A stretch of 38,989 nt of DNA from a virus. The stretch lies in the IMG/VR virus record IMGVR_UViG_3300010300_004031, positions 1 to 38,989 of that record, one strand, 5' to 3'. The notes under the pieces were generated by a model, which saw nothing but the letters and a program-made list of their open reading frames with translations, was not told the DNA's origin and did no database searches. Positions 6,001-29,954 of this stretch are shown here, piece by piece. Position numbers and translations under genes: made by a program. Position 1 is the stretch's first letter; the number at the start of each line of letters is the position of its first letter.

Positions 6001-8173
6001 ATTTGCTTTAGGTGGTGGAGATTCAATGCCCTTTAATTATAGGAACAAATTAATCGCTAATCAAAGTCCATTTAGAAACGCTTTACAGTTAGAGATGTTT
6101 GTTGGTGATACACAACAATACGCAGATTTTGAAAGTGGGCAACACCTTGATACTTTATTCTTCCCAGAAGGTAAGGTTGAATCTTTTCAATTTAGTGGTA
6201 TAGAAGCAGCATTAAAGGATAATGTGCTTTTAGAAAATGAAGCGAAAATAAGATTAGCGTTTGCTAATTATGCTCCAATTGTAGCTTCTTATCCAACTGG
6301 AGTGGGTGGAGCTTCTTATGATCTTTTTGGTGACACTCAACCATATTTAGAATGGCAACAATATACAAAAAATGGTGGTTTTGACGATCCTAGAGATTGG
6401 GGAACTGTTAAATTAGATCCTTATGAAAATCTAAATGGAAGATTTAACTATGATCCATTTGTTGAAGTAACTGGTATCAGATTTACTGGCGCTGGGTATC
6501 ACAATGATGGAGAAGAAACTCAAGGATTGTATTTAGATAGTACAACTTCAGCTAATATTGGCACTAATGATTTTTCTGTCTTTTGTTGGTTGTATCCTGG
6601 AGAAAGAAAAGGGTTATCATCGGATGGTATTGACGGCCAAAGTGAAGTTTTAATTTACAATTGGGGCGGAGATGCTAGTCTTGAATACACTAGGGATGAA
6701 ATTGATTCAAGTCCTTTGGTACCAGGTTTACATAGTGGCGCTGGGTTTATTTTATTCCATAATGTAGAAGATAGAAAAGTTCATTTGTATGCAGGAACGG
6801 GCATAATGATAGATTATGAAAGCGACGCAAGAAACACAGTAGATTTATTTACAGATGATGAACTTCCCGATACTCTTAACTTTATAGCCGCCTCTGTTGA
6901 TGCAAGTAATGGAACAGTAAAAAGATGGTTAAATGGAGTAAGGTATTCAGATTTAAGTGTTAAAGCTTATACTAGTGCACCTAGTGGATTGAGTAATTTT
7001 CACTACCCTACATTTCTTGCTCCAAATCATTCAGCAGCAAGTGCCTATAATGGCGAATTTGATGATGGAATTGGAAATCCTTTTAGTGATTTACAGGATG
7101 ATTATGAGCATTTTGTTTTTGGTTCGGACTTACTTGGATCTGAGCCACATAAAAGATTTGTTAGTAATTACATGGGCTTTAAAATAGGCCAATTCAGCAA
7201 TGCAGACATTGAAAAATACAATAAAGAACCAAATTTGATAGAAGAATTAAAAGGCCAAGGAAATACAAAAGCATTTTTAACATTTACTGGCGGTACGGGT
7301 TATATAACTGGTGGACATACAATACCTGCAAACAATATTAAATTTAGCGGAAATCCAGAGGACGATAATAACATAGGATCTGAAACTGGTTATGGTTCAA
7401 ATACAAGTGGTAGTGGAGGATTTCTTTTAGGTTATCAAAATATTGATTTGGTTAAATTTTTCACTGGAGCTGAAAGTGATTTTGATTTTAATCCTTTCAC
7501 AGAATTTAATTTTGCTTTTGAAAAAGAAGTTAATCTTAAAGAACACTATTATGATTCAGTTACTGGAGAAATTGTAGATCAATACGATATCACTGCAGAT
7601 GATATAAACAATTTTACGGGACTTTTATTCTACAAAGCTGTGCCGTATAATAAATATGGGCCAATGTTAACTTTTGAAACTGGAGAATTAACATCTCACA
7701 AAACATTAGAAAACAAATTCGGTAGTTTCAATGTTGTTGAAGAAACATTTAGCGGAAGAATGTTTACTGGATTTACTGGATATAACTTTAATCTTTCCGA
7801 AGAACTTGGAGCTAATTTAGGTGGTTCTAATTTAAATATCCCAGTAACAAAAAATGAAATATCTGGAGTCGAATTAAGTAGTTTTGGATTTGATTCAAGA
7901 AGATTTACAACAAGCCACACTTCAAATATAGTAAATTTTGTAATCAATACTGGAACACTTGAGTTTCCAACAAACAGTTTTCAGTTTGAAATATTATCTG
8001 AATCAGCTGGACAAGTTAGAGTTAGAAGCGATAATGGAGCTAGTATAATAAAAGATTCACCGACAGATGGTTCTCCAGGAGCTGTGAGTAACGATTTAGG
8101 GGGTGGTAAATCAACTAATCTTACTTACTCATCTACTTCAAAACAAGTAACTTTAAGAACTAGTAGTTTTTAA
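2..8173 (+). CDS. Phage tail-tip / host-specificity protein (lambda gpJ-like), 5' partial
   Basis: Distal tail protein that would contact the host receptor and initiate DNA delivery. The frame is open from base 2, before the first ATG at 221, and the upstream codons (IEGLVDRDGRTLYG) fit the N-terminal part of gpJ, so the true start lies outside the window; at least 2,723 residues are present. The gpJ core is recognisable at about nt 2060-2850: VPSNYF, a WDGSF...AWSDNPAWVLYDLL stretch, GKEPRFSFN, and LLSPGDIIRVVDE. Beyond nt 3450 come beta-rich, Gly/Ser/Thr-rich regions with many short FESG/FTG-type repeats. Two concanavalin/LamG-like lectin domains lie at about 5200-5830 and 6490-7270; each ends in a similar NYMGxKxG...PNLI segment. 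It converges on and overlaps the next, leftward gene by 4 nt. The gpJ assignment is firm for the core; the lectin reading is by pattern. Confidence 0.88.
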   Translation: MEGLVDRDGRTLYGQADDFVNVEPQDENIISTTPAADAYILKDFPDKILNTSYTRNTNLKARPPKQRARYPYHMLIVIDLSTGAAPYLDQIKEKLGKVVESQSLIKSLGFQLIFTVIAVGGRGEVLGTETIVTISSGSTQRIYNEVFVYTQFKTITDQNINAAQVKNRIDSQSTQTDNNFQNMAPVYQAIKNEVERFIERQDEEISDETTYERYQRNTVTAYNAVTIITHQGDRGSRRKNTLLAKIKNFQETLRSLAPTNEFSPSRYGELDADEDFLNNFKAFVIDLGDGEATTSYQPLIDTIGGKAFDSTSTIYDVFSYIGEFLLQTSTADFGLTYRAFEGLKNQLTNAEIPQLIYDGGTKYLITDLGATKVYYTSTQGFQGPWIQQEASGPAGQVISAKTLTLDKGVYFDENQVKTDSGKQFAKYQIELKKGSEDQTISQILPVAKRTLAKQYVLLGPFDRTINGARNGTGSRDERRNNSDRQGSGRDFTAWQNYEPAQKDPSIFSHEIFDADIEEIDIEVSVSALSDTQSFNSSADNKAGRSKAGRPLPTKIDYVLKTKHILKSGEVIEELATFKIPKTDGKGFNIRKGKIALTGIILQGGYRFTISNIVLPEFTSETATRLVTLEKTTFETKSNLINRDTSVASVTEKTKNRFRYPMSAYIGSSVDARSFQKLPNRTFKIKGKKILVPSNYFPTDDLGGDRRFSSDGSTVGNRIYDGEWDGSFRWAWSDNPAWVLYDLLNNFRYGTALYSRDLENIDIWSLYEIGKYCDAVDEYGKFVGVDDGLGGKEPRFSFNQRVEGNEDAYSVLKNIAKHMQALCYYKDSQIQFRIDKPEPVSMTFTNLNVVDGLFSYSDVVKGTKLTSVEVNYLDKENNYRPRTEYAEDKESISKYGYIKEYVNGYGVTSKGQALRMARNILFDSQHATETVSFDAGFEASLLSPGDIIRVVDEMKNLVPNYGMFLQSTGFLEYPNGAYGVTGLIVDRQIAPQTGLILTGSDAGNETYIHLFNANLSKGIKDLYFKKSLEKDNKALAFTDEEISGLRTPVAVSLQLSTEEYPIQDLGDNGILFKLETTQDYPPEAAFFQSMTPFAVDVSGRIEKTYRVLSVREKEEGTYGVGAVTYHTGKFDFVENNVKFDPKLDNFDVSTQKFVASLPKPPSAITPHLSSIEPFSGTNSIGAIDFPISIVNSNPSTADRFQVNLTKPDGTIVSFSDRVLRTGVTVAEGNTDDNGSTMFTFTGDAVNQAGLYTVNVFSETFKFYEGRSTTSRAGTFTVALGNLGLDDAGAVVRYSGISGTDENVFSNSFGPNDIDIDPSLADTAGSRTFKSNPESSAIDLNLIIRDFIGQDITNSPELRQFIDFKDAEPASGRFDLDRIDETGREGVTEFRLEKNELHERLDVPIEVFESGFDYEVENKMALDNSFAVENGKFHTDRNSGAQNIIFESGSFRSTPAVFLQQVYESGVNYAGNVSTIDHYETKPASIIETSGAGFTITSTATSTQVYEYFAFETGNYRINTQRFKIGFFDLTGTGFEPVSFNDSFTGTDGEGVGETPDGPMTFVQLQSGISGIPTASILKTTSKTGFFVRAESIYDIPMTGTCAYLAIENRLQSGNNFNFTGIGSDVNISGDTGVNPHISGVQQVNYFDFGSGTFNYTANKDYAIPSGDRIPYETEKFAAGDERVNFLVQPQHSQFGFHQLQDGESAVVIRGKEGDANYGERLLRNPITAINVNGQKADNSTDGEHGKIKYYTTANSSSNLDFASFGLFGWFNIPSGSNAKGVFMDSWNIGGFIWGHDGGDIKLYVGYANSTDNLNTVASNLDDGKLHSIFINVASDGFVQAFIDGTGKQARQTINAYNTGVSTQPGASLNNFVGASFLGPQGDGGNHYVGFPDFTNPFVNAGISGSFTGGYAANYMGIKTGSTFSEDQILELNRNPNLIKSAQGLNDIRVIVELTGNAAHTSSSSSVSQSGTINSSTERSRPVNYAHGLYVDQTTGIFGRSIFALGGGDSMPFNYRNKLIANQSPFRNALQLEMFVGDTQQYADFESGQHLDTLFFPEGKVESFQFSGIEAALKDNVLLENEAKIRLAFANYAPIVASYPTGVGGASYDLFGDTQPYLEWQQYTKNGGFDDPRDWGTVKLDPYENLNGRFNYDPFVEVTGIRFTGAGYHNDGEETQGLYLDSTTSANIGTNDFSVFCWLYPGERKGLSSDGIDGQSEVLIYNWGGDASLEYTRDEIDSSPLVPGLHSGAGFILFHNVEDRKVHLYAGTGIMIDYESDARNTVDLFTDDELPDTLNFIAASVDASNGTVKRWLNGVRYSDLSVKAYTSAPSGLSNFHYPTFLAPNHSAASAYNGEFDDGIGNPFSDLQDDYEHFVFGSDLLGSEPHKRFVSNYMGFKIGQFSNADIEKYNKEPNLIEELKGQGNTKAFLTFTGGTGYITGGHTIPANNIKFSGNPEDDNNIGSETGYGSNTSGSGGFLLGYQNIDLVKFFTGAESDFDFNPFTEFNFAFEKEVNLKEHYYDSVTGEIVDQYDITADDINNFTGLLFYKAVPYNKYGPMLTFETGELTSHKTLENKFGSFNVVEETFSGRMFTGFTGYNFNLSEELGANLGGSNLNIPVTKNEISGVELSSFGFDSRRFTTSHTSNIVNFVINTGTLEFPTNSFQFEILSESAGQVRVRSDNGASIIKDSPTDGSPGAVSNDLGGGKSTNLTYSSTSKQVTLRTSSF

Positions 8174-14483: not shown

Positions 14484-14693
14484 TTAGATACGAACTCCAC
14501 CAAGATTGATTCCACTCAGACTTGATTTAGCGAACTTTCGCGTTTGTTGAGCATTTCTGTCATGAATAACCACATATTGCGGTGTTTCTTTGACGAATTG
14601 AGCGTTAAATTGATCTCCGCTCTTTACTCTAAGGCCGAAAAAACGACCCTTGCTATTCTTCATAGCTTTTACTATACGATTTATTTTTCTCAT
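14484..14693 (-). CDS. Small basic protein, 69 aa
   Basis: I do not recognise this protein. It is 69 residues, strongly basic, with a beta-rich pattern (GRFFGLRVKSGDQFNAQFV, then YVVIHDRN) and a Gly-rich C-terminus (GINLGGVRI). The composition would suit a small SH3-like or nucleic-acid-binding barrel, but that is only a guess. It is the last gene of the replication operon, coupled to the Clp-like ATPase by an ATGA overlap, and a terminator follows 8 nt after its stop. Position and coupling make it likely to be a real expressed gene. Confidence 0.7.
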   Translation of the reverse strand: MRKINRIVKAMKNSKGRFFGLRVKSGDQFNAQFVKETPQYVVIHDRNAQQTRKFAKSSLSGINLGGVRI

Positions 14694-16078
14694 AAAAAAC
14701 CTATTTTATTTGTTACATTTATGTCAGTATTAGTTTTGACATTTTCAATATTAGTATTGAGTTTCTGTGCAAATATACCATATATGGTTTCCATGTCAAT
14801 CTTTTTTTGCTCTTTTTCGTCTGCAAAAAGTATTTTTGTTTTAGCGCCAGCTTCATCTAGTATATCAAAAGCTTTGTCTGGAAATTTTTTCTCTGGTAAA
14901 TACTCTGCGCAAAGTTCAATTATTTTCAATAAAACACTAGAAGTAAATTTTACATTGTGGAATTTTTCATAAGAAGATTTAGCTTTCTTTAAGAGTTCAA
15001 AGGTTTGTTCTTTTGTTGGTTCTAAGACATCTATTTTTTCAAAACGACGATTTAAAGCCGAGTCGCCTTTAAAATATTTTAAGTATTCATCTTTTGTGGT
15101 TGCACCTATACAAGCAAAACCCCCACGAGACAATACTGGTTTTAAGCTATTGGCTAAATCCAAACTACCTTCAGAGCTACCTGCTCCAACAATAGTGTGT
15201 ATCTCATCAATAAACAAAATATAGTCATCACTACTTGAAATTTCATCTATGATAGCTTTTACTTTTTCTTCCATTTGTCCTCTGTACATAGTTCCAGCAA
15301 GCACAGATGTCATATCTAAAGAAAGTATTTTTTTATTCTGTAAGAACTTTGGGCATTTCTTTTGTATTATTTTTTCAGCTAAACCCTCTACAATGGCTGT
15401 TTTACCAACACCAGCTTCTCCAACCAAAATGATATTACTTTTGTTTTTTCTTAGTAAAATTTCAAAAGATCTTTCTGTTTCTTTTTCTCTGCCAAAAATT
15501 TCAAAAGTTCCTCTGCTTTCAATCGTTTCGTTAATGTTTTCACACCACTCACTAATACCTTGAGCTTGCTTTTGTTTTGGTGGAGCTGAAGCAGGTTTAG
15601 AAACTTCCACCATTGGAGGTAGGCTAGTATCAATCCCATTCTTAATTATATACAAAAGTGTTGTACAAAATTTAATCACGTCAACTTGCAAACCAACAAA
15701 AAAAGCTCTGATCTCATTTCTTGTTTCCAATAAGGAAACTAAAATATGATCTAAACCTATAAAGTCATCTTTGTTTCTTTTGGATAGTTTTTGAGATGCA
15801 TCTAAAATTTCAAATATTTCGGGGGCAAAAACTTTATACTTTCTTTTTGGTTCTTTGTATTGTTCTAAAACCATTTCTAAAGCTTGAAGAAAGCCAGTTT
15901 TTATCCAGCCATTCATTTCCATACAGAAATCTATATTTGTGTGGTCAGATTGAAGAATAGCATATATGAGATGTATGTCTATAACTTTTAAATGTCCATA
16001 TTCGGACGCTATTTCTTGAGCTTCTAATAAGCAATTTTTAGCGGATGGTGTGAGGTTGTAACTTGAGAAGTCGGTCAT
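14690..16078 (-). CDS. Clp/HSP100-like AAA+ ATPase with only the D1 module
   Basis: A 462-residue AAA+ protein. Residues 1 to ~150 resemble the ClpA/ClpC N-terminal repeat domain (LTPSAKNCLLEAQEIA, GLDHILVSLLE). A Pro/Gln/Lys linker (about 160-175) leads to a D1-type AAA+ module: Walker A GEAGVGKT at ~219, Walker B LFIDEIH at ~287, sensor/arginine-finger stretch ALNRRFEKI at ~340, and a helical lid with FPDKAFDILDEAGA. Usual ClpA/B/C proteins run 750-850 residues with a second AAA+ domain and, in ClpA/C, a ClpP-docking loop; both are absent here. ATP-driven remodelling of a protein partner is likely. Its place directly after DnaE (ATGA overlap) suggests the partner is a replication protein, or that it does a job normally done by a clamp-loader-type ATPase; this is inference. 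Confidence 0.85.
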   Translation of the reverse strand: MTDFSSYNLTPSAKNCLLEAQEIASEYGHLKVIDIHLIYAILQSDHTNIDFCMEMNGWIKTGFLQALEMVLEQYKEPKRKYKVFAPEIFEILDASQKLSKRNKDDFIGLDHILVSLLETRNEIRAFFVGLQVDVIKFCTTLLYIIKNGIDTSLPPMVEVSKPASAPPKQKQAQGISEWCENINETIESRGTFEIFGREKETERSFEILLRKNKSNIILVGEAGVGKTAIVEGLAEKIIQKKCPKFLQNKKILSLDMTSVLAGTMYRGQMEEKVKAIIDEISSSDDYILFIDEIHTIVGAGSSEGSLDLANSLKPVLSRGGFACIGATTKDEYLKYFKGDSALNRRFEKIDVLEPTKEQTFELLKKAKSSYEKFHNVKFTSSVLLKIIELCAEYLPEKKFPDKAFDILDEAGAKTKILFADEKEQKKIDMETIYGIFAQKLNTNIENVKTNTDINVTNKIGFL

Positions 16079-18651
16079 TTTATTTCTGATAATCTTGTGT
16101 AAATTTTTTCATCAAGGATAGATAATTTTTCTCCAAATATAATATCTTCTCCCTTCGTTCCGTAAATAAAAACAATTTGTCCTTCTTTAGGCTTTTTACC
16201 ACCTTCATTTAGGTAATTGTCTAGAGTAGCTGACCTTCTGTTGTTGGTCATCATGAAATTAACTTTTCCATAATCATCTTGTATTTCAACTCTCATGTAC
16301 TTATTTCCAGCTCTGCTGGTTCTAGAGACGCAATCTGTCACGACTCCAACATACTTTACACGGTCATTTTGTTCAATTGACTTTAATTCCAAACTGTTGA
16401 CTAAGTTTTGGGTATCTTGGAAAACATTTTTAATCTCATTTGAGTGGCTATATCCCAAGTATTTGCGCTCAAAATACCAGTTAGCAAATACCAGATGTTC
16501 TTTATTTTTGTCGTATATTTGGCGATATTTGTCGTAATCTCTTTTAAATGTTTGAAATCTAGAGTCTTTCATTAAAGGTCTGCCGTCATCAGCGGGATAA
16601 TTTTCTTTTCTAACAAAGGCAATAGAATTTAAAATATCATAATTTAATTTAGCCCCAAGTTGTGTGAAATTTCTTTTTTCTCTTTGAGTTAGTAGGTTGA
16701 AAGCTTGAGCTTCCAAAACTAATCTACAACGATTCGCTACACCGCTAGAGCTATCACAAAAAGAATCCATCATACCACCTTGTATAAGTCCAGATAAAAC
16801 ACCAATATTGATTCCAGAATCTTTAGCTGATAGAAAGATATCATATTTGTTTTGTTCTAATAACTGAGAGTCTCTAAAATCTACAACATTTTCAAGTGTT
16901 TTTTCTGATACTCCTTTAACGCTGTTTAAGCCATATCTAATATTATTACCTTCAATAGAAAACTCAACTTTTGATTTGGCTAGATCTGGTGGTAAAAGCT
17001 TCATATCAAACAAGCAAAGTTCTTGGCTAATCAAAGCTATCTCTGCATGAGAATCTGGCTCGTGCTTTGTCATTTTAAGCAAAGACAAAAAGAATTCTTT
17101 TGAGTGATTAAATTTTAGGTAAGTTGTAATTGCCGCCAAAGTGGCGTAACTAATAGAGTGCGATTTGTTGAATGAATAATTAGCTGAATCTTCTGCAACT
17201 TTCCATAAAACTTTACCAACTTGCTTGGGTAAATTATTCTCCTCTATTTTTTCTTCAATCTTAGCTTTCCAAGCTGGCATTTGGTCTACTTTCTTTTTGC
17301 CAACAATACGTCTAAGTTGTTCCGCTTCATCAAGAGTAAAGCCAACTTTAACAGCCATCTTCATTAACTGTTCTTGGTATAAAGGAATGCCTCCAGTATA
17401 AGATAAGATATCATCAAAAAACTCGTGAACAGAACTGAACACGCTAGTTTTTACATAACTTGCATATGTATCTAAATAATCCAAAGCACCAGGGCGAGCA
17501 ATAGCAACCACGGCAGACAGTTCTTCAAGGTTGCGAGGAGCAATCTTTCTAGCTGCTTTAAAGTTTGTATCCGCTTCAATCTGGAAGAGACCCTTTGGTG
17601 CCTCAATGAATTTGAAGTTTTCATATATGTTATTTGACTCAACATCTATAGTTTCAATATCCATATCTAATTGTTTAAGAGTGTCATAAACAACAGATAA
17701 TGTTCTTAATCCCAAGATGTCGAATTTAACCATCAAAGATGCTACGTCATTCATGTCGTAACCAGATACATAATTACCGTCATTGGTTTTTTGCATCGGC
17801 ATAACTTCTTGTATATTGTAGAAGCTAATCGCAATCCCCGATGGGTGAACGCCAGTGTTCTTGTTTAATCCTTCTAGTTTTCTGGCAATGTTAAATACTT
17901 TAGGGTTGTCATCGCAAAACTTTTTAAGTTTCTCGCTTTCATCATAAGCTTTTTCTAACTTAAATACCTTTCCGAACTGTTTTGGAATAGAAGCGCTAAT
18001 ATCATTAACCTCTTCTTCTGAGAACCCTCCCACGATCTTTCCGCACTCCTTTACACACAATTTACTACTCAATGTGTTTAAAGTTAATATCTTACAAGTC
18101 TTACCTTTATGCTTATCTTCAATATATTTGATTACCTCGGCTCTTCTATCGTAACTGATATCATTGTCCACGTCAGCCAACAAAGAGCCGTCTAGGTACG
18201 TTATATCGTCAACAACGGTCTTTTTGGCTCTGCTTTTGGATACAAATCTCTCAAAAAACAGATCATACTTGATTGGGTCAATATTTGTTACTTTTAGTAA
18301 AAATAATACCAACGAGCCAGCGGCAGAACCACGACCTGGCCCAGTTGGTATATCATTCTCATGGCAAAAGTTTAAAACATCCCAGTTTAAAAGTATATAA
18401 TCAACAAACCCCAAATCTTTTAAAACAGATAGTTCCATCTTAACTCTGTCGTAGTATTCTTGTTTGTTTTCTAATTTATCAATACCTCTTTCTTTGACAC
18501 CTTTTAGGCATAACTCACGAAGCAAATCATAGTTAGATGATGTATTAGAAATACCTAACTCGTCATAGAATCTTTGCTCTACTTCAATCCCTGGTAATCT
18601 AACGCCAACTGGCATTGGTTGTTTAAATGATTCTAAATTTCTAATTCCCAT
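16075..18651 (-). CDS. dnaE: DNA polymerase III alpha (DnaE) without PHP domain: palm, fingers, OB
   Basis: Replicative C-family polymerase. Motifs in order: GPGRGSAAGSL at ~104, the catalytic pair within DVDND at ~158, the third catalytic Asp in KFDILGLRTL at ~308, LYQEQLMKMA and LRRIVGKKK in the fingers, SFNKSHSISYA at ~490, and an OB-fold at ~757-858 (KYVGVVTDCVSR). At 858 residues it lacks the ~270-residue N-terminal PHP domain. That part appears as a separate protein encoded at 19220-19915, with the exonuclease gene between the two. Between FERF and the first catalytic Asp there are about 23 residues, against about 9 in E. coli DnaE, so a small insertion sits beside the active site. No clear beta-clamp-binding peptide was spotted. 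It overlaps the exonuclease gene by 19 nt and the Clp-like gene by ATGA. Confidence 0.95.
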   Translation of the reverse strand: MGIRNLESFKQPMPVGVRLPGIEVEQRFYDELGISNTSSNYDLLRELCLKGVKERGIDKLENKQEYYDRVKMELSVLKDLGFVDYILLNWDVLNFCHENDIPTGPGRGSAAGSLVLFLLKVTNIDPIKYDLFFERFVSKSRAKKTVVDDITYLDGSLLADVDNDISYDRRAEVIKYIEDKHKGKTCKILTLNTLSSKLCVKECGKIVGGFSEEEVNDISASIPKQFGKVFKLEKAYDESEKLKKFCDDNPKVFNIARKLEGLNKNTGVHPSGIAISFYNIQEVMPMQKTNDGNYVSGYDMNDVASLMVKFDILGLRTLSVVYDTLKQLDMDIETIDVESNNIYENFKFIEAPKGLFQIEADTNFKAARKIAPRNLEELSAVVAIARPGALDYLDTYASYVKTSVFSSVHEFFDDILSYTGGIPLYQEQLMKMAVKVGFTLDEAEQLRRIVGKKKVDQMPAWKAKIEEKIEENNLPKQVGKVLWKVAEDSANYSFNKSHSISYATLAAITTYLKFNHSKEFFLSLLKMTKHEPDSHAEIALISQELCLFDMKLLPPDLAKSKVEFSIEGNNIRYGLNSVKGVSEKTLENVVDFRDSQLLEQNKYDIFLSAKDSGINIGVLSGLIQGGMMDSFCDSSSGVANRCRLVLEAQAFNLLTQREKRNFTQLGAKLNYDILNSIAFVRKENYPADDGRPLMKDSRFQTFKRDYDKYRQIYDKNKEHLVFANWYFERKYLGYSHSNEIKNVFQDTQNLVNSLELKSIEQNDRVKYVGVVTDCVSRTSRAGNKYMRVEIQDDYGKVNFMMTNNRRSATLDNYLNEGGKKPKEGQIVFIYGTKGEDIIFGEKLSILDEKIYTRLSEIK

Positions 18652-19262
18652 AACTGTTTTTGAAATATCTCAAAGTTTTTCTCTATATCGTATAAAGCAT
18701 CATGTAACTTTTTTTCGTCAAAGTCAATATTATAATGCTGTAATAGATGTTTCTGATTTGTTTTTAAACCACGTTCCCTAAAGTGAAGGTATCTCATTTG
18801 CCAAGCAAGTAATTCGTTGCCTGGATTTTTATCCCCCTTTGCTATAGCTTTAGCTAAAATGTTTGTATCTAAAAGCTCTCCAATAAAATTTTCGTAACTA
18901 ATTCTTACGCCCATCTTTCTAAGCCAAACACCTAATATATAAATATCATAACCAAGAATATTGTGACCAAGAACAATGTTATTACCATACAAAGCTTTTT
19001 CAAAGTCTTTCCAAACAACCATTGGATCTTCTGCAACAGATTCGTAATAATCTCTGTCAAATCCAGTAACCCGTGCGGCATCTGGAGAGACATTTAAGTC
19101 GTCCCATTTGATGAAGCGATTGTGTTTTTTGATGACTTTTTTACCTTCGCATTCAATCCAAGCTATCTGCCAAGGTTTAGAGGTGATTAAGTTTAATCCC
19201 TCTGTCTCGGTATCAAAAACTACGTAGCGCTGTTTAAAGTTGTATCTAAGTAATTCTTCCAT
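18633..19262 (-). CDS. DnaQ-like DEDDh 3'-5' exonuclease
   Basis: A 209-residue exonuclease of the DnaQ/RNase-H-fold type, most likely the proofreader for the adjacent DnaE. Exo I is FDTETEG (~14-20, Asp and Glu metal ligands), Exo II is GHNILGYD (~98-105), and Exo III is HDALYD (~186-191), with His five residues before Asp, giving the DEDDh class. I chose the ATG at 19262; a TTG four codons upstream (19274) is less likely. The gene overlaps the PHP fragment by 43 nt upstream and the DnaE palm gene by 19 nt downstream. It therefore separates the two halves of the polymerase. Bacterial PolC also carries an exonuclease within its PHP region, which makes the order PHP-exo-palm notable. Confidence 0.9.
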   Translation of the reverse strand: MEELLRYNFKQRYVVFDTETEGLNLITSKPWQIAWIECEGKKVIKKHNRFIKWDDLNVSPDAARVTGFDRDYYESVAEDPMVVWKDFEKALYGNNIVLGHNILGYDIYILGVWLRKMGVRISYENFIGELLDTNILAKAIAKGDKNPGNELLAWQMRYLHFRERGLKTNQKHLLQHYNIDFDEKKLHDALYDIEKNFEIFQKQLWELEI

Positions 19263-19915
19263 GATCCAAAGCAAAATTCGTCACTACCAAAGTGATCTAG
19301 TCCAGGGTTTGATAGATCATAAGTTCTACCTATCCTGCGGTTACAAATTAATTTATAAGTTTGAAAAGCCAAAACATCTTCTTTATCTTTATAATATATT
19401 GACTTTGCATTAAAGTGTTCGTTTAAATGATTCTTGCAATAATTTAATATTTTATCTTCAATCAAACAATCAAAGGGAAGATTGTTATCTTCTATTACAA
19501 AAGATATATCACGAGGTAAATCAACAACACAATTAGAAAAGGTTGTTAAATTTTTATGTAAGAAAGAATCATAAAAGGGCACAACATACTGTAAATGTTT
19601 TGTAGAGTCCCAAGGTCTTGTGATTTTTGTGTCCGACTGTTGGGTATAAAGATTATATAATTCTTTTGCACCAGCATCACCATTTGCAAAAGCAATCATT
19701 TTACTTTCTGATTCTTCGCTGTGGTCGTCGTTATACATAGAGAAACGCAAACCAAAACGTAATCTATCTTCAAACTTTCTAAAGGCTTCTGGAAAACCTG
19801 TCATACTATCTTCAACAAAGTAAACCTCTTCGAAGTCTTTTGTTAACTCGTGTACATCATCTATTCGTAAAATGCTTTTACCTATAGATGAATGTGTCTT
19901 AAATAATGGAATCAT
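19220..19915 (-). CDS. Separate PHP (N-terminal) domain of DnaE
   Basis: A 231-residue protein matching the N-terminal PHP domain of C-family polymerases by eye. Residues 4-16 (LFKTHSSIGKSIL) correspond to the first PHP strand. Residues 31-62 (VYFVEDSMTGFPEAF...RFGLRFSMYND) correspond to the family's LTDHGxMxGxxxF...KPIxGxE segment. The end (LDHFGSDEFCFGSW, ~206-219) corresponds to the PHP-palm boundary stretch. The usual metal-binding His in TDH is replaced (EDS), so phosphoesterase activity is probably lost and the role structural. The ATG at 19915 is preceded by a very good promoter. With the palm gene at 16075-18651 it would rebuild one alpha subunit of about 1,090 residues. A decayed remnant is an alternative, but the intact frame and the promoter argue against it. 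Confidence 0.78.
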   Translation of the reverse strand: MIPLFKTHSSIGKSILRIDDVHELTKDFEEVYFVEDSMTGFPEAFRKFEDRLRFGLRFSMYNDDHSEESESKMIAFANGDAGAKELYNLYTQQSDTKITRPWDSTKHLQYVVPFYDSFLHKNLTTFSNCVVDLPRDISFVIEDNNLPFDCLIEDKILNYCKNHLNEHFNAKSIYYKDKEDVLAFQTYKLICNRRIGRTYDLSNPGLDHFGSDEFCFGSWKNYLDTTLNSAT

Positions 19916-19949: not shown

Positions 19950-20933
19950 GTGTTTTGGGCAACCTTCGTAATATTTTATTGAATGTGAACCACCTTCTGG
20001 CACCATACTCTTATCAAAGTCTTCTTGAAAGCAGGAAAGAGTGTGTTCCCCATCTGCATCTAATATTTCCACATAAAAGAAATCAAATTTAAATGGACAA
20101 TGCCACATAAGAGAACCATCTTTTTTCAGTTGACCTTTTTTCTCAGCAAAACCACATTGCAGTCTACCACTAAAAGTATTATCATCTGGAAAGCCCTTAT
20201 CATATGCAAAATTACTTTTGGCTGTGGACTCTGTAAAATTTTCTAGATAGTCTTGTATATTTGCCAACTGCATTTCAAAACCTTCTAAATCATCTTCATC
20301 TAAAGGTGTCATTTTTAACAAGCCTTCTTTTTTTAAATTAAATTTTAAAAATAAAAATTCAGCATTTCTATTTACATATTCTGGAAACAAATGTTTAACA
20401 GCTAAACAATAAATGTAATCTTGTAGGTTATCTTCTTTTTCTTTTCCAATAAATATTTTTTTAGATGTTTTATAATCTCTAATCAGTGCTATTTTTTTAT
20501 CCTTGTATAAAAACAACTGGTCAATAAAACCTCTAATGTTGTATCCGTTTTTTTCTATATCAAAATCTAACTCTGCATAAGCCTCATCTGGTATACCTAA
20601 TTCTTCTCCGTGAAAGTTGCAACTTAAACCGTTGAGAATCATTTGTTTAATTAAGTCCATGTTGTCGTCATCATCAACACCCATCTCTTTCGCTTCAGAT
20701 AGTATTTGATCTTTAACAACCTTAACTGCAAAAGGATCTTTTGCTTTAACAATTTTATTGTATTGAGTTTTGGTTTTTTGTTTGGATAAATGTTCGAAAA
20801 CATTGTGACATATAGAACCACGTCTAGCTCCATCGTTACCTTTTTCTGGTAACTTGAGTTTGTATTTAGACCAATATAACCAACTACAAGATTGCGCAGT
20901 TTTTATACGGCTTGCTGATAATTTAACTTCCAT
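19938..20933 (-). CDS. Cas4/RecB-like PD-(D/E)XK nuclease, possible Fe-S protein
   Basis: A 331-residue exonuclease-like protein of the PD-(D/E)XK superfamily, similar in layout to Cas4 and the nuclease domain of RecB/AddB. Visible motifs: GSICHNVFEHL (H43), GFIDQLFLY (D138), IRDYKTSKK (D153 and K155), and the helix motif LQDYIY with Q171 and Y175. Cysteines at 16, 260, 279 and 325 have the one-N-terminal, three-C-terminal layout of the Cas4/AddB iron-sulphur site. Likely role is end resection feeding the phage annealing protein or RecA. It overlaps the primase gene by 11 nt upstream. There are no CRISPR genes nearby, so a spacer-acquisition role is unlikely. Confidence 0.85.
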   Translation of the reverse strand: MEVKLSASRIKTAQSCSWLYWSKYKLKLPEKGNDGARRGSICHNVFEHLSKQKTKTQYNKIVKAKDPFAVKVVKDQILSEAKEMGVDDDDNMDLIKQMILNGLSCNFHGEELGIPDEAYAELDFDIEKNGYNIRGFIDQLFLYKDKKIALIRDYKTSKKIFIGKEKEDNLQDYIYCLAVKHLFPEYVNRNAEFLFLKFNLKKEGLLKMTPLDEDDLEGFEMQLANIQDYLENFTESTAKSNFAYDKGFPDDNTFSGRLQCGFAEKKGQLKKDGSLMWHCPFKFDFFYVEILDADGEHTLSCFQEDFDKSMVPEGGSHSIKYYEGCPKHLTN

Positions 20934-21951
20934 TGATAATTTTCATTAGTTTTTTGCAGTTACCGTTTTTTCGTAAATTGTCTTTTGATTTTATTTGTTC
21001 TATAATCCAGTCTTGTGTTTTTTTGTCTGCTAAATTCCATTTGCATTTTCTAGTATACCACTCTTCAAACATATTAATATTAGATTCAAGCATGTCGCCA
21101 AAATCATTTGCAAGTGGTGGGTTAACGCATATTTGACTAAGGTCATATATTTGAGATAATTTAGCAACGGTTTTGATTGTGGCTATACCACCAGAGTTGG
21201 TTTCTTTATCTTTGTCGTTATTCATTGCTACAATTATTCTATCTAAATTAAAACTATTGAGATACGATAACACTTTAGATGAAATATCTAAGCCAGCTAA
21301 CATTAAAACATTTTTAAAACCAGCTTCATACAAAGCCATGCAGTCGCCAATACTTTCTACTAAAATAACTTCGCCTTTTTCTTCTATATTGTCGTGGGAA
21401 AGATGGTGTGGATAAACCCAATCTGTTTTACGCCCCATGTGCTTCCATTTGGGAATATTATCTCCTTTCACAACAGTCCTACCAGAAAAACCATGTATCT
21501 GATTGTTTAAATCGTAGATAGGAAAAACCATACGTCTATACATTTTACCGCCACCAGCATAACCGCACTTAAATAATTTTTGGGTTTCTTCGGATATCTT
21601 TTTATTTAGGTAAAAATCTCTGACTGGTAGGAGTTTTTCTAAATAAGATTCTGGGTATATTTTTTCCATTTCTATTTTTTGTTCTGGCTCTTTACGTTCG
21701 TAAGTTTGTACAGCGTCACCTACATATTGTTTTAATATTTGGGGGTCATTAGTTTTTAGTGTTTCTTGTACTAAAGCTTGAAATGGTTTAGATTGGTTGT
21801 CTGTACCAAAATCTTTCCAAACGCCAGTGTCTTTATATATTATAATGGCTGTTTTGTTTTTTCCATTTCTATACAAAGCATTTGTACGCCAATGATTACC
21901 ACAATCTTGAAGTTGATAACCAAGCTTTTCTAAACTGTCTCTATAGATCAT
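20923..21951 (-). CDS. DnaG-type Toprim primase without the zinc-binding cysteines
   Basis: A 342-residue primase that would lay down RNA primers with the adjacent helicase. The catalytic Toprim part has VILVESIGDCMALY (conserved Glu, ~194-203) followed by the DxD-type segment MNNDKDKE (~241). A preceding RNA-polymerase-like segment reads YRRMVFPIYDLNNQIHGFSGR, the DnaG FPI...GxxGR pattern. The N-terminal ~80 residues resemble the CHC2 zinc-binding domain in layout (KTAIIIYKDTGVWKDFG) but lack its Cys/His ligands. I chose ATG 21951 over the TTG one codon upstream. It overlaps the end of the helicase gene by 11 nt. No helicase-interaction domain of DnaG type is obvious at the C-terminus. Confidence 0.88.
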   Translation of the reverse strand: MIYRDSLEKLGYQLQDCGNHWRTNALYRNGKNKTAIIIYKDTGVWKDFGTDNQSKPFQALVQETLKTNDPQILKQYVGDAVQTYERKEPEQKIEMEKIYPESYLEKLLPVRDFYLNKKISEETQKLFKCGYAGGGKMYRRMVFPIYDLNNQIHGFSGRTVVKGDNIPKWKHMGRKTDWVYPHHLSHDNIEEKGEVILVESIGDCMALYEAGFKNVLMLAGLDISSKVLSYLNSFNLDRIIVAMNNDKDKETNSGGIATIKTVAKLSQIYDLSQICVNPPLANDFGDMLESNINMFEEWYTRKCKWNLADKKTQDWIIEQIKSKDNLRKNGNCKKLMKIINGS

Positions 21952-23458
21952 CAAAAGAAGGTATATTATCTTGTGTGTGTATTAAGTCACCACCATTGTT
22001 TCTGAAGGCGACGATGTCTCTTAAATCTCCACACTCTGTGATGTTAAAGTTTTTAAACTGTAGATTGATAAAGTTTTTGCGTAAGTTGTCATCAACTTGG
22101 ACTGGCTCACAAGCACCTGCAATATCTTTACCTAAATGTCTAGCTTTAACGTTGATAAGTTTATGTGTACCAAATGAAGAACCATCGTCTGTTATTTCAT
22201 CTGTTGTTTTTTGTCTTAAAATAAACATGTGAGAACAGAACTGTGTGATTCTATCTGATAGGGAGACGATGGACTCATCATCAACAATATTTTGAGAATT
22301 TCTGTTATTAGTAATACCACTACGATTTGATTGTACAGATGTAATCATTGGTATAACTGGCAAACCATCCTCAAGGATTTCTTTTTGTATACATTTTTTA
22401 AACTTGTCTACCATCTCTCCAACCATTTGCCACTCTGATTTATTGCCAGACTGTTTATCGGAAGATGTTTTAATATAATCAAAAGAAAAAATCATTTTAT
22501 TGCCACGACCAACTTGAGAATAATAAAATCTTTTAAGTGTGTTAATCATAGAGTCAACATCCATACCACCAACATTGTAGTAGTAAAATTTAAGTTGTTT
22601 AACCTTAGACCAAACAGCTCGAACTTTCTTTACAACATCTTCTCCAGCTTGTCGCCACTTACCACTTTCCAATAAGTGAGAAGGCACACCAGACAAAGCC
22701 GCACATTGACGAATGATTAGTTCTTCTTTACTCATTTCACCGTTATCAAAATGTAAAACGGGTACGTTGTATTTCATTGCAACCTTTGTTGAATAATCCA
22801 TGCAAAATTGTGTTTTACCAACACCAGAACGAGCAACTATAACTGTAATGTTTCCTGGTCTCAAAAGAGAGCCGTAAATATCATTTACCTTTTCGTGAGG
22901 GCCGAACATTCCGAACTCGTCAACTGGATTGTTGCCACGCTCTTCAATAAATCCTTCCATCTCCTCGTAAATGTTTTTAGGAACGTCATCACCAACTTCA
23001 AACAAATTAATTTTTTCATTATACATTTGATCGGCCATTTCAATAATCTGCAAATATGGCACATCTGTGTTGATGTTTTTCATTTGCTCTGAAATTTTTT
23101 GACCAGTAGAATGTATCTCTCTGCGGACGCTGTACTTTTTGAGTTCCTTAATTGAGGTTTCTATCTTGTCGTCAGAATGTATTTTACGCATTGATAGCGA
23201 TCGTACATAATCAAGTATATTGATATCTTCTTCAAACTTGATTCCTAAATCTTTAATTCTTTGTACTATGACAATCTCGTCAATACTTTCGTTTTTCTCT
23301 AAAGACTTTTTGAGTATAAGGAAGAGTGTTTTATGTAGTAGAGAATTTTTATCGTAAAAATCCTTTTCATTTAAGACGCTTAAATAATTAACAAATATGT
23401 TAGGTTTTTGCAAGAAAGCGGCTAAAACTTGCTTTTCTATTTCATAACTATAAATCAT
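21941..23458 (-). CDS. dnaB: Replicative DnaB-type helicase
   Basis: A 505-residue hexameric helicase of the DnaB family, unwinding DNA at the phage fork. The N-terminal domain starts with SYEIEKQVLAAFLQKP and KDFYDKNSLLHKTLF. The RecA-like motor has Walker A ARSGVGKT at about 209, then VLHFDNGEMSKEEL (the H1a-type Glu), a Walker-B-like MIFSFDYIKT, and a GKDIAGA-type C-terminal region where arginine-finger residues normally lie. I chose ATG 23458 rather than the GTG two codons upstream because the promoter and the AGG sit correctly for it. The primase follows with an 11-nt overlap, as helicase-primase pairs commonly do. No separate helicase loader was recognised in the window. Confidence 0.93.
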   Translation of the reverse strand: MIYSYEIEKQVLAAFLQKPNIFVNYLSVLNEKDFYDKNSLLHKTLFLILKKSLEKNESIDEIVIVQRIKDLGIKFEEDINILDYVRSLSMRKIHSDDKIETSIKELKKYSVRREIHSTGQKISEQMKNINTDVPYLQIIEMADQMYNEKINLFEVGDDVPKNIYEEMEGFIEERGNNPVDEFGMFGPHEKVNDIYGSLLRPGNITVIVARSGVGKTQFCMDYSTKVAMKYNVPVLHFDNGEMSKEELIIRQCAALSGVPSHLLESGKWRQAGEDVVKKVRAVWSKVKQLKFYYYNVGGMDVDSMINTLKRFYYSQVGRGNKMIFSFDYIKTSSDKQSGNKSEWQMVGEMVDKFKKCIQKEILEDGLPVIPMITSVQSNRSGITNNRNSQNIVDDESIVSLSDRITQFCSHMFILRQKTTDEITDDGSSFGTHKLINVKARHLGKDIAGACEPVQVDDNLRKNFINLQFKNFNITECGDLRDIVAFRNNGGDLIHTQDNIPSFDDL

Positions 23459-23495
23459 ATGCACCTAATATTGTGCATAAAATCAAAAAAGTCAA
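23459..23495 (-). promoter_or_regulatory. Helicase promoter with -10 cradled in an inverted repeat
   Basis: On the minus strand TTGACT (23490-23495), a 17-nt spacer and AATATT (23467-23472), then 8 nt to ATG 23458. The -10 lies in the 8-nt centre of a perfect 7-bp inverted repeat with arms TATGCAC and GTGCATA. The right arm reaches into the start codon. An AGG 5 nt before ATG could serve as a weak ribosome site. Confidence 0.58.
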
Positions 23496-26424: not shown

Positions 26425-27340
26425 AATAGGGACTATGATATACTTTTAAGTTTTTGTCAAGTCTATTTTCTAAATATTGTTTTCTAAAGTCATCTTCAAC
26501 TTCCCAAGCGCCTTGTAGTCTGCGAATTTCGTAATTCGCTGTAGAGTGACTCATGCCACGGTGCAATAATAAAACATCTGATGAATAAATAATATTCTTG
26601 CCATTTTTAAACAAATCATAAAGAAATAATAGATCTTCTCCTGTTTTTAATGTTTCATCATATTTAATGTTCATTAAGGTTTCAACTTTGACAATTGGGT
26701 GTCCATAAGCTACGGTTAACTTTCCTTTATGACGTGCATAAACATCTCCTATATTCTTTTCTGAAAATTTTATAGATGTTACTTTACTAACTGGTTCAAA
26801 ACGAGCCGCAGGTTTCTTTTGTTTGTGCATAAAAGATTCTACGTTTTCAAAAGCTTCTTTAATTATTGAGCTTTTTTCTTGATGATCTTTTTTGCGAGTG
26901 ACTTCTTGTAAAGCTGTTTCACCTTCAACAAATCCAATTGGATCAACATGCCAAATTTGTGAGTGAATAAAACAATCTGGTTGATGTTTTTTAATACATT
27001 CTTGTGCGTATTCTAATCTAAATTTAAGAGAAATGTCGTCTATATCACAAAACATAATATATTCTGTTTCGCAAAATCTAGCGCCAAAATTTCTAGCAAA
27101 ACCAGGATTTTTTCTTTTTGGGTAAACATGATAATTGATTGGTATTGTTTTACCAGCAACTCTTATGTATTTTGGTTGTTTATCAAAATAATTTTTAGGT
27201 AAACCATTTGCGGAAATTATTAACTCATGAAATGGTACCGTTTGAAGAGCAATTGTGCGAAACGCATAATCTAAAAAGTGTACGTCTCTATCGCAACAAG
27301 TAATACATACGCTAAAATAATTATTGTAATTGAAGGTCAT
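26384..27340 (-). CDS. GT2 (GT-A fold) glycosyltransferase
   Basis: A 318-residue family-2-type glycosyltransferase, transferring a sugar from a nucleotide donor in the cytoplasm. The N-terminal strand SVCITCCDRD, the GFARNFGARFCETEY segment and the metal-binding DxD in MFCDIDDIS (D99, D101) are typical. TGEDLLFLYDLF near residue 235 supplies the ED motif of the acceptor side. There are no membrane helices. It ends the leftward sugar island, overlapping the dehydratase gene by 20 nt upstream; the RecA unit starts inside its 3' end. Donor sugar is unknown; a GDP-sugar made through the adjacent dehydratase is a natural candidate. Confidence 0.85.
   Translation of the reverse strand: MTFNYNNYFSVCITCCDRDVHFLDYAFRTIALQTVPFHELIISANGLPKNYFDKQPKYIRVAGKTIPINYHVYPKRKNPGFARNFGARFCETEYIMFCDIDDISLKFRLEYAQECIKKHQPDCFIHSQIWHVDPIGFVEGETALQEVTRKKDHQEKSSIIKEAFENVESFMHKQKKPAARFEPVSKVTSIKFSEKNIGDVYARHKGKLTVAYGHPIVKVETLMNIKYDETLKTGEDLLFLYDLFKNGKNIIYSSDVLLLHRGMSHSTANYEIRRLQGAWEVEDDFRKQYLENRLDKNLKVYHSPYYDKQDEQKPINPK
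26432..26460 (-). promoter_or_regulatory. Leaderless promoter of the RecA unit
   Basis: On the minus strand a perfect TTGACA (26455-26460), a 17-nt spacer and CATAGT (26432-26437), then 7 nt to ATG 26424. Both boxes lie inside the 3' end of the GT2 coding region. Geometry matches the promoter before the PHP gene. Confidence 0.62.
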
Positions 27341-28355
27341 TTTCTACCATTCTTCGAACAAGAGTATCAAAGTTTACACCGTTTTCCCAGCCTAAATCTT
27401 TTCTAGCTTCCGAAGAATCTCCCAAGAGAAGCTCTACTTCTGCTGGGCGATAGAATTTTGAATTAATTTTCAATAAAGTATCTCCAGTTTCTGAATGTAA
27501 GAGCACTGTATCCATTGGATCTTTGGCCTCACTCCAAATTACTGGAATACCAGCGTACTCAAAAGATTTTTCAACAAACTCTTTAACCGAATGTGTTTCT
27601 CCAGATGCTAATAAATAATCTTTTGGAAGAGGTTGTTTTAACATTAACCAAACAGCTCTGACAAAGTCTTCTGCGTGACTCCAATCTCTTTTAGCTTCCA
27701 AATTTCCAAGTTCAAAATATTCTGGCGTCTTACCTTCTGTAAGTTGTTTTTTAATTCTAGCTACATTCATTGTAATTTTTCTTGTAACAAATTCTTCGCC
27801 ACGACGCTCTGATTCGTGATTAAATAAATAACCTTGGACAGCGAATAAATCATAAGAGTCTCGCCAAACTTTTACAATCTGTCTTGCAGCAACTTTGGAT
27901 GCACCATACGGACTGCGAGGTCTTGAAGGGTGCGCTAAATCTTGTGGGCTATAAACAACATCTCCAAACTCTTCGGATGAACCAGCGTTGTAATAACGGC
28001 ATTTGGGGCAATGTTTTCTTATGGCTTCTAGTTGATGCAAAACAGCCATTGTATTGTTTTGGAAATGATTGACTGGCATTTTCCAACTTAAGCCTACAAA
28101 TGAATTTGCTGCAAAATTCATAAAGTAATCTGGTTTAACCTCTTCTAAACAAGCGTTAATACTGTGCTCATCACCCAAGTCCATTTCTATTAAATGAAAT
28201 CTAGGATTAAGTTTGAGGTGTTCTATATGTTGGTGGTTGGGAACGCTTAGTCTACGAATTGCACCATATACCTCAACGTTTGTATATTTTAACAAAAACT
28301 CGGCCATATAAGAACCGACTTGACCTGTAACACCTGTGACTATTGCTTTACTCAT
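27321..28355 (-). CDS. gmd: GDP-mannose 4,6-dehydratase
   Basis: A 344-residue SDR enzyme that would convert GDP-D-mannose to GDP-4-keto-6-deoxy-D-mannose, precursor of GDP-fucose, GDP-rhamnose and related sugars. The NAD(P)-binding loop is TGVTGQVGSYMAE (7-19), the catalytic region is SSEEF (126-130) with YGASK (Y150, K154), and the family-specific NHESERRGEEFVTRKIT and LGNLEAKRDWSHAEDFV are nearly canonical. The length is normal for Gmd. No GDP-fucose synthase or other enzyme for the next step was recognised with certainty, so the product may be finished by a host enzyme or by the GalE-like protein two genes upstream. Confidence 0.93.
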   Translation of the reverse strand: MSKAIVTGVTGQVGSYMAEFLLKYTNVEVYGAIRRLSVPNHQHIEHLKLNPRFHLIEMDLGDEHSINACLEEVKPDYFMNFAANSFVGLSWKMPVNHFQNNTMAVLHQLEAIRKHCPKCRYYNAGSSEEFGDVVYSPQDLAHPSRPRSPYGASKVAARQIVKVWRDSYDLFAVQGYLFNHESERRGEEFVTRKITMNVARIKKQLTEGKTPEYFELGNLEAKRDWSHAEDFVRAVWLMLKQPLPKDYLLASGETHSVKEFVEKSFEYAGIPVIWSEAKDPMDTVLLHSETGDTLLKINSKFYRPAEVELLLGDSSEARKDLGWENGVNFDTLVRRMVENDLQLQ

Positions 28356-28932
28356 ATTTCTTTGTTGCTAAAGTATTCATAACATCGCTTTGAAGCGTGT
28401 AGTTAAAACTATCTAGTTTAGAAAGAACTTCTGAATGTTTAAGACCTGGATTATGGACACCACTAGCATGTCTGTGTTCGTAAAATATTTGACCTATATC
28501 ATATTTTGTTAAGTCAATAGATAAAATTAAATCCGCATCTATACCTTCTGCGTCTATAAAAAGACAATCTATCTTTCCTTCAATTTTATCTAATAAGTCA
28601 TTGATTTTTAGAGCTTGTATTGTTTTTTCTTCAATTTCATTATGCTCATGATCAACAACATGTTTTTTTAAAACTGAAGCATGTCCACACATTTCTTCCG
28701 CATCTGTTGGGATGTATAGTGTAATTGTGTCTTCGTTGTAATCATTGTCGACTATTGCGGCATTAATAAATATAGCTCTATCTTTAAGAAACTTGTATTT
28801 CTTTTTTGCTACACCAACAGCATCCTCTAAGGCATCTATACAATAAAAATTTTCAACTTTATCAGATTCTTTAGTGATAAATTCGTTAACGTGATCTTCG
28901 CAATTGTGGCATCCTATCTGTATGATATTCAT
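28348..28932 (-). CDS. FkbM-type methyltransferase (first of two)
   Basis: A 194-residue SAM-dependent methyltransferase-like protein of the FkbM type, which methylates hydroxyls on sugars or polyketides. The N-terminal IIQIGCHNC replaces the usual SAM-binding glycine-rich strand, YCIDALEDA supplies the acidic ribose contact, and CLFIDAEGIDADLILSID is the characteristic FkbM core. A short segment QIFYEHRHA follows. It overlaps gmd by 8 nt and follows the epimerase gene after 1 nt. The likely role is O-methyl capping of the phage-directed glycan. A second FkbM protein of the same length lies at 36740-37324, but the two share little sequence beyond the core motif. Confidence 0.75.
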   Translation of the reverse strand: MNIIQIGCHNCEDHVNEFITKESDKVENFYCIDALEDAVGVAKKKYKFLKDRAIFINAAIVDNDYNEDTITLYIPTDAEEMCGHASVLKKHVVDHEHNEIEEKTIQALKINDLLDKIEGKIDCLFIDAEGIDADLILSIDLTKYDIGQIFYEHRHASGVHNPGLKHSEVLSKLDSFNYTLQSDVMNTLATKKYE

Positions 28933-28933
28933 T

Positions 28934-29935
28934 TTATTTCCAATATTTATAAATTCCTTTTTCTACTTCGTAGTTTATTGTTTTAACTTCTCTTTGTTTC
29001 TCTTTAATAGCCCAATCAAACATTTTTTCAACTAATTTTTGTAAATTTGTTTCATCTTTAAAATTTAAAATATCTTTAGCTTTAGTGTGATCACAAAAAG
29101 CGTGTTTTGCTTCGTGTCTTGGCTCATCGTGGATAATAGACGCTTTGATATTGTATTTGAGTGCAGTATCAACTACTAAATTTGCCACCTCGTTTAATGA
29201 AAAATATTTATCAGCCCCTATATTAAAAATTTTCCCTTCATATTCTTCTATCAACATTTCCATTGGCTCCATATAATATTCTATATCGGAAAAAGCTCTA
29301 GTCTGTTCTCCGTCTCCATATATAATTAATGGTTCACCGTTAATAGCTCTTCTAATAAAAATTCCAATAACATTTCTATATCTATCCCAAATATTTTGAT
29401 ATATACCTAAAACATTATGAGGTCTAACGATATTGTATTTAAGACCAAATTGTTCAGAAGCTTGCTGTATATCTAATTCTACTGCGTATTTAGCGATACC
29501 GTATGGATCAATTGGATCTTGCTTCATTTCTTCTGTAAATGGTGGTTTTTGTTTACCATAAACCGCCATAGAAGATGTGAATATTAATTTAGCATCGTGT
29601 TTAATACATTCGTTAATAATGACAGCTGAAGCAACAACATTGTTGTTGTAGTTATATACTCTAATAAATGGAGATAAACCTTCAGCGGCATAAGCTGCAA
29701 AATGAAAAACAGCTTGAGGCTTAAATCTGTCAAAAATAGATGCAACAACACTTTCGTCTTTTTCTAAGTTGGTAGGAAAAAAATAAAAGTTTTTATGTTC
29801 GGGTAAAAAATCTTGATACCCTCCAGAGAGATCATCTATACCTACAACTACATAACCTTTTTCTAAAAGATGTCTAGAAAAATTTGCACCCAACAAACCT
29901 GCGGCACCTGTAATTAGTATAACTTTTCGCTTCAT
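28934..29935 (-). CDS. NAD-dependent sugar epimerase/dehydratase (GalE-like)
   Basis: A 333-residue extended SDR enzyme acting on a nucleotide sugar. The NAD-binding TGAAGLLGANFSRHL opens the protein, FHFAAYAAEGLS and TSSMAVYG lead to the catalytic YGIAK (Tyr and Lys), and IVRPHNVLGIYQ and GDGEQTRAFSDIEY match the UDP-sugar 4-epimerase branch. Length and motif order resemble UDP-glucose or UDP-glucuronate 4-epimerases. The exact substrate is uncertain. It lies between the GT9 gene (gap 19 nt) and an FkbM gene, inside the sugar operon. Confidence 0.85.
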   Translation of the reverse strand: MKRKVILITGAAGLLGANFSRHLLEKGYVVVGIDDLSGGYQDFLPEHKNFYFFPTNLEKDESVVASIFDRFKPQAVFHFAAYAAEGLSPFIRVYNYNNNVVASAVIINECIKHDAKLIFTSSMAVYGKQKPPFTEEMKQDPIDPYGIAKYAVELDIQQASEQFGLKYNIVRPHNVLGIYQNIWDRYRNVIGIFIRRAINGEPLIIYGDGEQTRAFSDIEYYMEPMEMLIEEYEGKIFNIGADKYFSLNEVANLVVDTALKYNIKASIIHDEPRHEAKHAFCDHTKAKDILNFKDETNLQKLVEKMFDWAIKEKQREVKTINYEVEKGIYKYWK

Positions 29936-29954
29936 GTACTATCTTAAAATATTT

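Follow-up and report, generated by a model that had tools for sequence, protein, structure and literature searches.

A large, widespread clade of uncultured phages probably builds its DNA polymerase III core from three polypeptides, with the PHP domain as a separate docking subunit. The arrangement was seen in IMG/VR virus record IMGVR_UViG_3300010300_004031, a metagenomic fragment of 38,989 bp, which was analysed over its whole length and is referred to here as the window. The genes concerned and their neighbours in the replication block are as follows.

14690-16078, minus strand: ClpA/B-like AAA+ protein, downstream of the polymerase gene (PHROG 4871, E 3e-100; synteny)
16075-18651, minus strand: PHP-less DnaE-type DNA polymerase with palm, thumb, fingers, HhH and OB, 858 aa
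18633-18651, minus strand: overlap of the exonuclease gene end with the polymerase gene start, 19 nt
18633-19262, minus strand: DEDDh 3'-5' exonuclease, presumed proofreading subunit, 209 aa from ATG
19220-19262, minus strand: overlap of the PHP gene end with the exonuclease gene start, 43 nt
19220-19915, minus strand: stand-alone PHP-domain protein, DnaE-type PHP with the metal ligands lost, 231 aa
19938-20933, minus strand: PD-(D/E)XK (Cas4/RecB-like) nuclease, directly upstream of the PHP gene (PF12705, E 2e-16)
20923-21954, minus strand: DnaG-type (Toprim) primase, a conserved neighbour (PF08275, PF13155; synteny)
21941-23464, minus strand: DnaB-type replicative helicase, a conserved neighbour (PF03796, 5e-16; PF00772; synteny)

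The three open reading frames lie where a preliminary description of this DNA had placed them, and the overlaps that it gave, 43 and 19 nt, are exact. The replication block runs in the order DnaB helicase, DnaG-type primase, Cas4/RecB-like nuclease, PHP-exonuclease-polymerase and Clp-like AAA+ protein. Comparison of synteny places the Cas4/RecB-like nuclease in the same position in most relatives. The Clp-like gene, which overlaps the polymerase stop by 4 nt, is kept downstream of the polymerase in part of the clade; its product in the window has 462 aa and one AAA module, and ORFs of about 800 aa are found in more distant relatives. The exonuclease frame is open up to a TTG at 19274, and the ATG start is conserved among relatives. 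By eye, there are no Shine-Dalgarno-like sites 5' of the exonuclease and polymerase genes, and an Rfam search gave no matches. Elsewhere in the window, three ORFs within 27321-34674 match nucleotide-sugar epimerases (PHROG 540) and are perhaps part of a sugar-related gene block, and a tail fibre J-like protein of 2650 aa (221-8173) is encoded on the strand opposite to most other genes.

The three proteins

As a single sequence, the 231-residue protein of the window gave nothing useful in searches of Pfam, PHROG or PDB. Its family is more informative. Pfam PHP is matched by 39 of 45 homologues (best E 1.9e-17), and the family profile, searched against PDB, matched residues 96-252 of Taq DnaE and also, weakly, PolC. 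Profile-profile comparison with 13 DnaE sequences by hhalign, a comparison with the DnaE PHP domain that had been called for earlier, gave a probability of 98.4% (E 4.6e-15) in an alignment to E. coli DnaE 25-238; the exonuclease family, the control in the same comparison, reached 10%. The AlphaFold model (pLDDT 86.8, pTM 0.84) had 19 PDB matches with E below 0.001, which were DnaE and PolC entries only. By family profile, profile-profile comparison and model, then, the protein is a DnaE-type PHP domain, the missing part of the polymerase that the preliminary description had taken it to be, and one that single-sequence annotation misses. The sequence distance is nevertheless large, with identity to ordinary DnaE PHP domains of ∼12% in the profile alignment. 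The stretch DHFGSDEFCF (residues 207-216), which had been proposed as the PHP-palm boundary, does lie at that border, and its S211 and F214 are invariant (n=45 homologues).

The metal-ligand motif of active PHP nucleases is HHDHEH[C/H]DH (PMC12926913), and this site is absent from the phage protein: HLHVH is replaced by PLFKS/T, DG by KS, TDH by VED, GCE by GLR, the H of HL-LLA by K, and NDSHY by KSIYY. Nuclease activity is known for the PHP of some DnaE proteins (PMC5636811, PMC12926913), and the phage protein might on that precedent have been one as well, proofreading alongside or instead of the DEDDh exonuclease. With its own ligands substituted, and with the site of the separate exonuclease intact, we consider this very unlikely. 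The PHP of E. coli DnaE is likewise devoid of an active metal site, and mutations in it reduce the stability and activity of Pol III (PMC3666897). More generally, the domain is strictly conserved within bacterial replicative polymerases, even after loss of the nuclease, its remaining role being incompletely understood (PMC3666897), and it carries the epsilon-binding site (PMC3919608). Because the metal ligands have been lost, and because the PHP of E. coli, though degenerate, still contributes to polymerase stability and activity (PMC3666897), the phage protein most likely serves as a structural subunit acting in trans.

The 858-residue protein starts just before its palm domain and lacks PHP, as had been described. 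A Pfam search matched PF07733 from residue 43 (E 7.7e-63), PF17657 (finger domain) and HHH_6, and found no PHP in the chain, PHP being encoded by the separate gene. The HhH domain (PF14579) lies at 550-631 and is followed by an OB at 774-848, with a score below the Pfam cut-off. The chain begins at the DnaE segment that follows PHP, the invariant glycine of GVRLP being preceded by 9-25 residues in all 31 relatives compared. None of these 31 diverse relatives deviates at the catalytic aspartates, which are Asp160 and Asp162 in DVDND, the local form of the PDxDxDF motif, and Asp311 in KFDILGLR. The AlphaFold model (pLDDT 86.9, pTM 0.81) finds DnaE structures first in PDB. A simple pattern search gave no conserved clamp-binding motif in the polymerase. 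The polymerases of the clade also carry an insert, KK..DGITYLDGSLL, immediately N-terminal to the catalytic DVDND (window 18178-18231, residues ∼141-158).

The exonuclease (PF00929, E 3.6e-14; PHROG 192 'DNA polymerase exonuclease subunit', E 4.6e-23) has a complete DEDDh site, with D17, E19, D106, H187 and D192 invariant in 33 homologues. The chain ends ∼20 residues past D192 and is without an epsilon-like PHP-binding tail. The residue ∼4 or 5 positions from the C-terminus is commonly aromatic; it is the sole candidate docking point that we saw, and a weak lead.

PHP and exonuclease adjoin in PolC as well, and the weak PolC matches of the PHP profile could be taken to mean that the intervening gene is a remnant of PolC's embedded exonuclease. 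Such a descent is highly improbable. The polymerase profile matches T. aquaticus DnaE with E 9e-115 and PolC with 8e-07 only, and its second PDB-aligned stretch is the C-terminal part of Taq DnaE; the OB is C-terminal to the HhH, which is the DnaE order; and the exonuclease of PolC is situated inside the PHP domain, not after it (PMC3919608). Moreover, a 3'-5' exonuclease gene lies directly upstream of DnaE, as here, in Pseudomonas phage PB1 (gp58-gp57), where the DnaE is unsplit (1035 aa).

Recurrence of the split among related phages

Scans of IMG/VR yielded several hundred related loci, and all three genes are present in 162 distinct ones among them. Their order on the one strand, PHP-exonuclease-polymerase, holds in 162 of 162, each with the same break, and a search for an unsplit version found no fusion between any two of the three genes in this set. 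The last scan gave 71 loci with a DnaE devoid of PHP in cis, and both PHP and exonuclease were nearby in 66 of them. Of the five exceptions, four are truncated at the contig end and one (L580) is of another DnaE lineage. All three genes are under purifying selection, with dN/dS of 0.025-0.16 where calculable.

These counts dispose of the simplest artefact. The window is a single metagenomic fragment, in which an assembly error, a frameshift or a decaying gene might have mimicked a split. We attach practically no probability to this, and regard it as ruled out, since all 162 distinct loci repeat the split and its gene order and keep a conserved exonuclease gene, intact, between the two parts of DnaE, and since dN/dS is low; the polymerase start, too, keeps within the same short distance of the glycine (n=31).

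Spacing is more variable than order. The distance between the PHP and exonuclease genes is at most 30 nt in 112/162 loci, that between the exonuclease and polymerase genes in 117/162, and both are in 82/162, with the -43 nt PHP-exonuclease junction of the window repeated in its near relatives L005, L011 and L014 and other distances elsewhere. More than 300 nt separate PHP from exonuclease in 49 of the 162 loci and exonuclease from polymerase in 16. The longer gaps, where read, contain other genes, whose translations look like GMP-reductase, cupin and radical-SAM-like proteins; on the same reading, no homing endonuclease gene that might have caused the split was evident between the three. The preliminary description had the exonuclease gene sitting exactly in the gap and overlapping both neighbours, which is correct for the window and, as to order, for every locus, but fails as a general rule. 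The three genes are often adjacent but need not be, and do not make up a strict module. Since gaps of more than 300 nt occur at many loci, translational coupling, which had been put forward as the means of assembly, is optional and no general requirement.

The variable spacing also bears on whether the PHP protein still belongs to the polymerase. It has a gene of its own, separated from the exonuclease gene by the longer gaps in those 49 loci and with other genes inserted in many, and its sequence has diverged far from ordinary PHP, so that it could be pictured as released from the polymerase and given another job, for example in regulation or host-factor binding, with the polymerase working in its absence. 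We think this unlikely, given that the PHP gene is upstream of the exonuclease and polymerase genes, on the same strand, in nearly all loci long enough to judge, that purifying selection on it is strong, and that its product keeps at its C-terminus the border segment which in DnaE leads to the palm, with both invariant residues.

The group is large, and no close relative of its polymerase is present among ∼50,000 annotated phage records. The PHP protein gave zero matches by tblastn against 50,697 phage records, and the exonuclease a single weak one, in a phage annotated with a Pol-gamma-like polymerase. One locus, L264, in which a 67% identical polymerase is accompanied by PHP and exonuclease, is on a contig binned as a Lokiarchaeota MAG, which is probably a misbinned phage contig.

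The PHP-palm junction and the origin of the split

PHP and polymerase might be rejoined after translation by a split intein, in the style of cyanobacterial DnaE, to give a single mature chain. Precedent exists within this very polymerase family, which has true split inteins at another site: six relatives (L212, L220, L225, L560, L561 and L564) have the polymerase cut again at SFNK^SHS, each with an N-intein (92-98 residues), and a C-intein ending TSN before the serine is present in the four that were read completely (L212, L560, L561 and L564). At the PHP-polymerase junction, however, the PHP protein continues for only 6-18 residues past its last invariant position, and the polymerase has 9-25 ahead of its first. 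No split intein was found at this junction in 31 diverse members, the ends being too short beside the N-inteins seen. Rejoining by known kinds of intein is ruled out by sequence, which makes a single mature chain extremely improbable, and the PHP border is unlike the rejoined break at SFNK^SHS.

The relatives cut at SFNK^SHS show some further features. A nuclease-like ORF lies between the polymerase halves in L561 and L564, and L560 has a GIY-YIG-looking ORF on the strand opposite to the split polymerase. The arrangement resembles the 'fractured genes' reported from marine metagenomes. At another locus (L210:7926-11714), the polymerase has a contiguous insertion of ∼406 aa at about residue 448, which starts CVTGDTRF, ends MIIHN before C, and from its sequence looks like an intein.

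The window holds a single DnaE match. We also searched 15 relatives of 84-194 kb for DnaE, PHP, family A polymerase and clamp. Each record had one DnaE, PHP matches were confined to the PHP-exonuclease-polymerase locus, and neither a family A polymerase (PolA) nor a beta clamp was found in these 15 records. Thus no separate complete DnaE turned up in the window or in the long relatives. The evidence for these absences is strong but not absolute, because the 15 records may be fragments.

A tree of 89 C-family polymerases sets the split group apart by a branch with SH-aLRT 100, the stem measuring 0.94 changes per column. The group's closest neighbour in the tree, L427, is an ordinary fused DnaE with an active-looking PHP, a placement which is moderately supported only. 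Further scans of the collection brought up no basal member of the clade in which the genes are fused or only half split, and the great majority of the other viral DnaE loci (n=159) are fused. The distribution is accounted for most simply by a single fission in the ancestor of the clade, at the PHP-palm border.

The same border has been broken elsewhere. In IMG/VR contig L389 (4913-8409), a DnaE of a distant lineage is split there, with ligands apparently intact (HLHVH...LLDG) and no exonuclease between the two ORFs, both of which seemingly contain the border segment; this was seen once. Because L389 is unrelated and broke independently, fission at this border has happened at least two times, and in these scans it was fixed in a large clade only here. 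Four further contigs (L372, L374, L387 and L390; L435 and L442 are overlapping loci of two of them) have the first ∼70 PHP residues in an overlapping ORF of their own, followed by a DnaE of ∼1050-1070 aa; this is another split, a programmed frameshift or the result of errors.

A proposed three-subunit core and its known counterparts

Throughout the clade, DnaE is split at the PHP-palm border, and the three genes have been preserved whole and in an invariant order. In the core that we propose, the PHP protein would, once translated, dock at the position that PHP has in an ordinary DnaE, stabilising the polymerase and holding the exonuclease near the primer end, and the DEDDh exonuclease would proofread. 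Overlapping starts may aid co-production in some members, and would not be essential. That the three proteins form one enzyme we infer from their co-occurrence, order and selection and from the known architecture of Pol III; the tail-less exonuclease, the long PHP-exonuclease gaps in 49 of 162 loci and the large divergence of PHP count against it. On balance we also favour a more specific version, in which an obligate, catalytically dead PHP subunit would act in trans to bridge the tail-less DEDDh proofreader to the PHP-less DnaE, the additional split intein giving some members a replicase from four or more genes.

Compared with the E. coli core (a DnaE1-type alpha and a separate epsilon), the phage core has the same DnaE-type palm, fingers, HhH and OB, a dead PHP and a separate DEDDh exonuclease, but in E. 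coli PHP is part of the palm chain, whereas the phages encode it separately, their exonuclease is without an epsilon-like tail and no clamp was found. PolC, the Gram-positive replicase, likewise combines PHP and a DEDDh exonuclease with a C-family polymerase. It does so in one chain, with the exonuclease inserted in PHP and the OB N-terminal, in contrast to the three DnaE-type chains of the phages. The preliminary description was right to set the arrangement apart from PolC, and also from the cyanobacterial DnaE split by an intein (mentioned in PMC3919608), which has two genes, a break inside the polymerase and the intein at the break, and not an intein-free break at a domain border.

Splits of C-family polymerases are already known, and what appears to be new here is the separate PHP gene with the exonuclease encoded between it and the polymerase. 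An open-access literature search of partial coverage found no report in which a conserved PHP subunit stands alone, the DnaE lacks PHP and is the sole polymerase detected, and the proofreader is encoded between the two. Selection has here maintained PHP as a separate gene, outside the polymerase chain, so that what PHP contributes to folding, activity and exonuclease docking can be tested by adding or omitting it, with no need to mutate one large protein.

To call this a third arrangement, as had been done, undercounts the phage DnaE splits, most of which, the L389 break aside, have other break points. Group 2.2 jumbo phages (PMC7824862) also make a C-family alpha, a minimal Pol III alpha, as separate proteins, but from widely spaced genes and with the break running through the catalytic domain; they have none of the other Pol III domains, and carry a family B polymerase besides. 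In Bacillus phage KLEB27-3, DnaE is in two genes with an HNH gene at the break, which is inside the polymerase and not at a domain border. Cellulophaga phage phiST (L504:41629-45229), whose gene table lists no gene at these positions, has DnaE in two neighbouring ORFs of 525 and 673 aa. The break is inside the palm, between ERFLN and PDIDTDF, so that PHP stays with the first palm part, and there is no exonuclease between the ORFs. The DGITYLDGSLL insertion of the clade polymerases lies near this break site.
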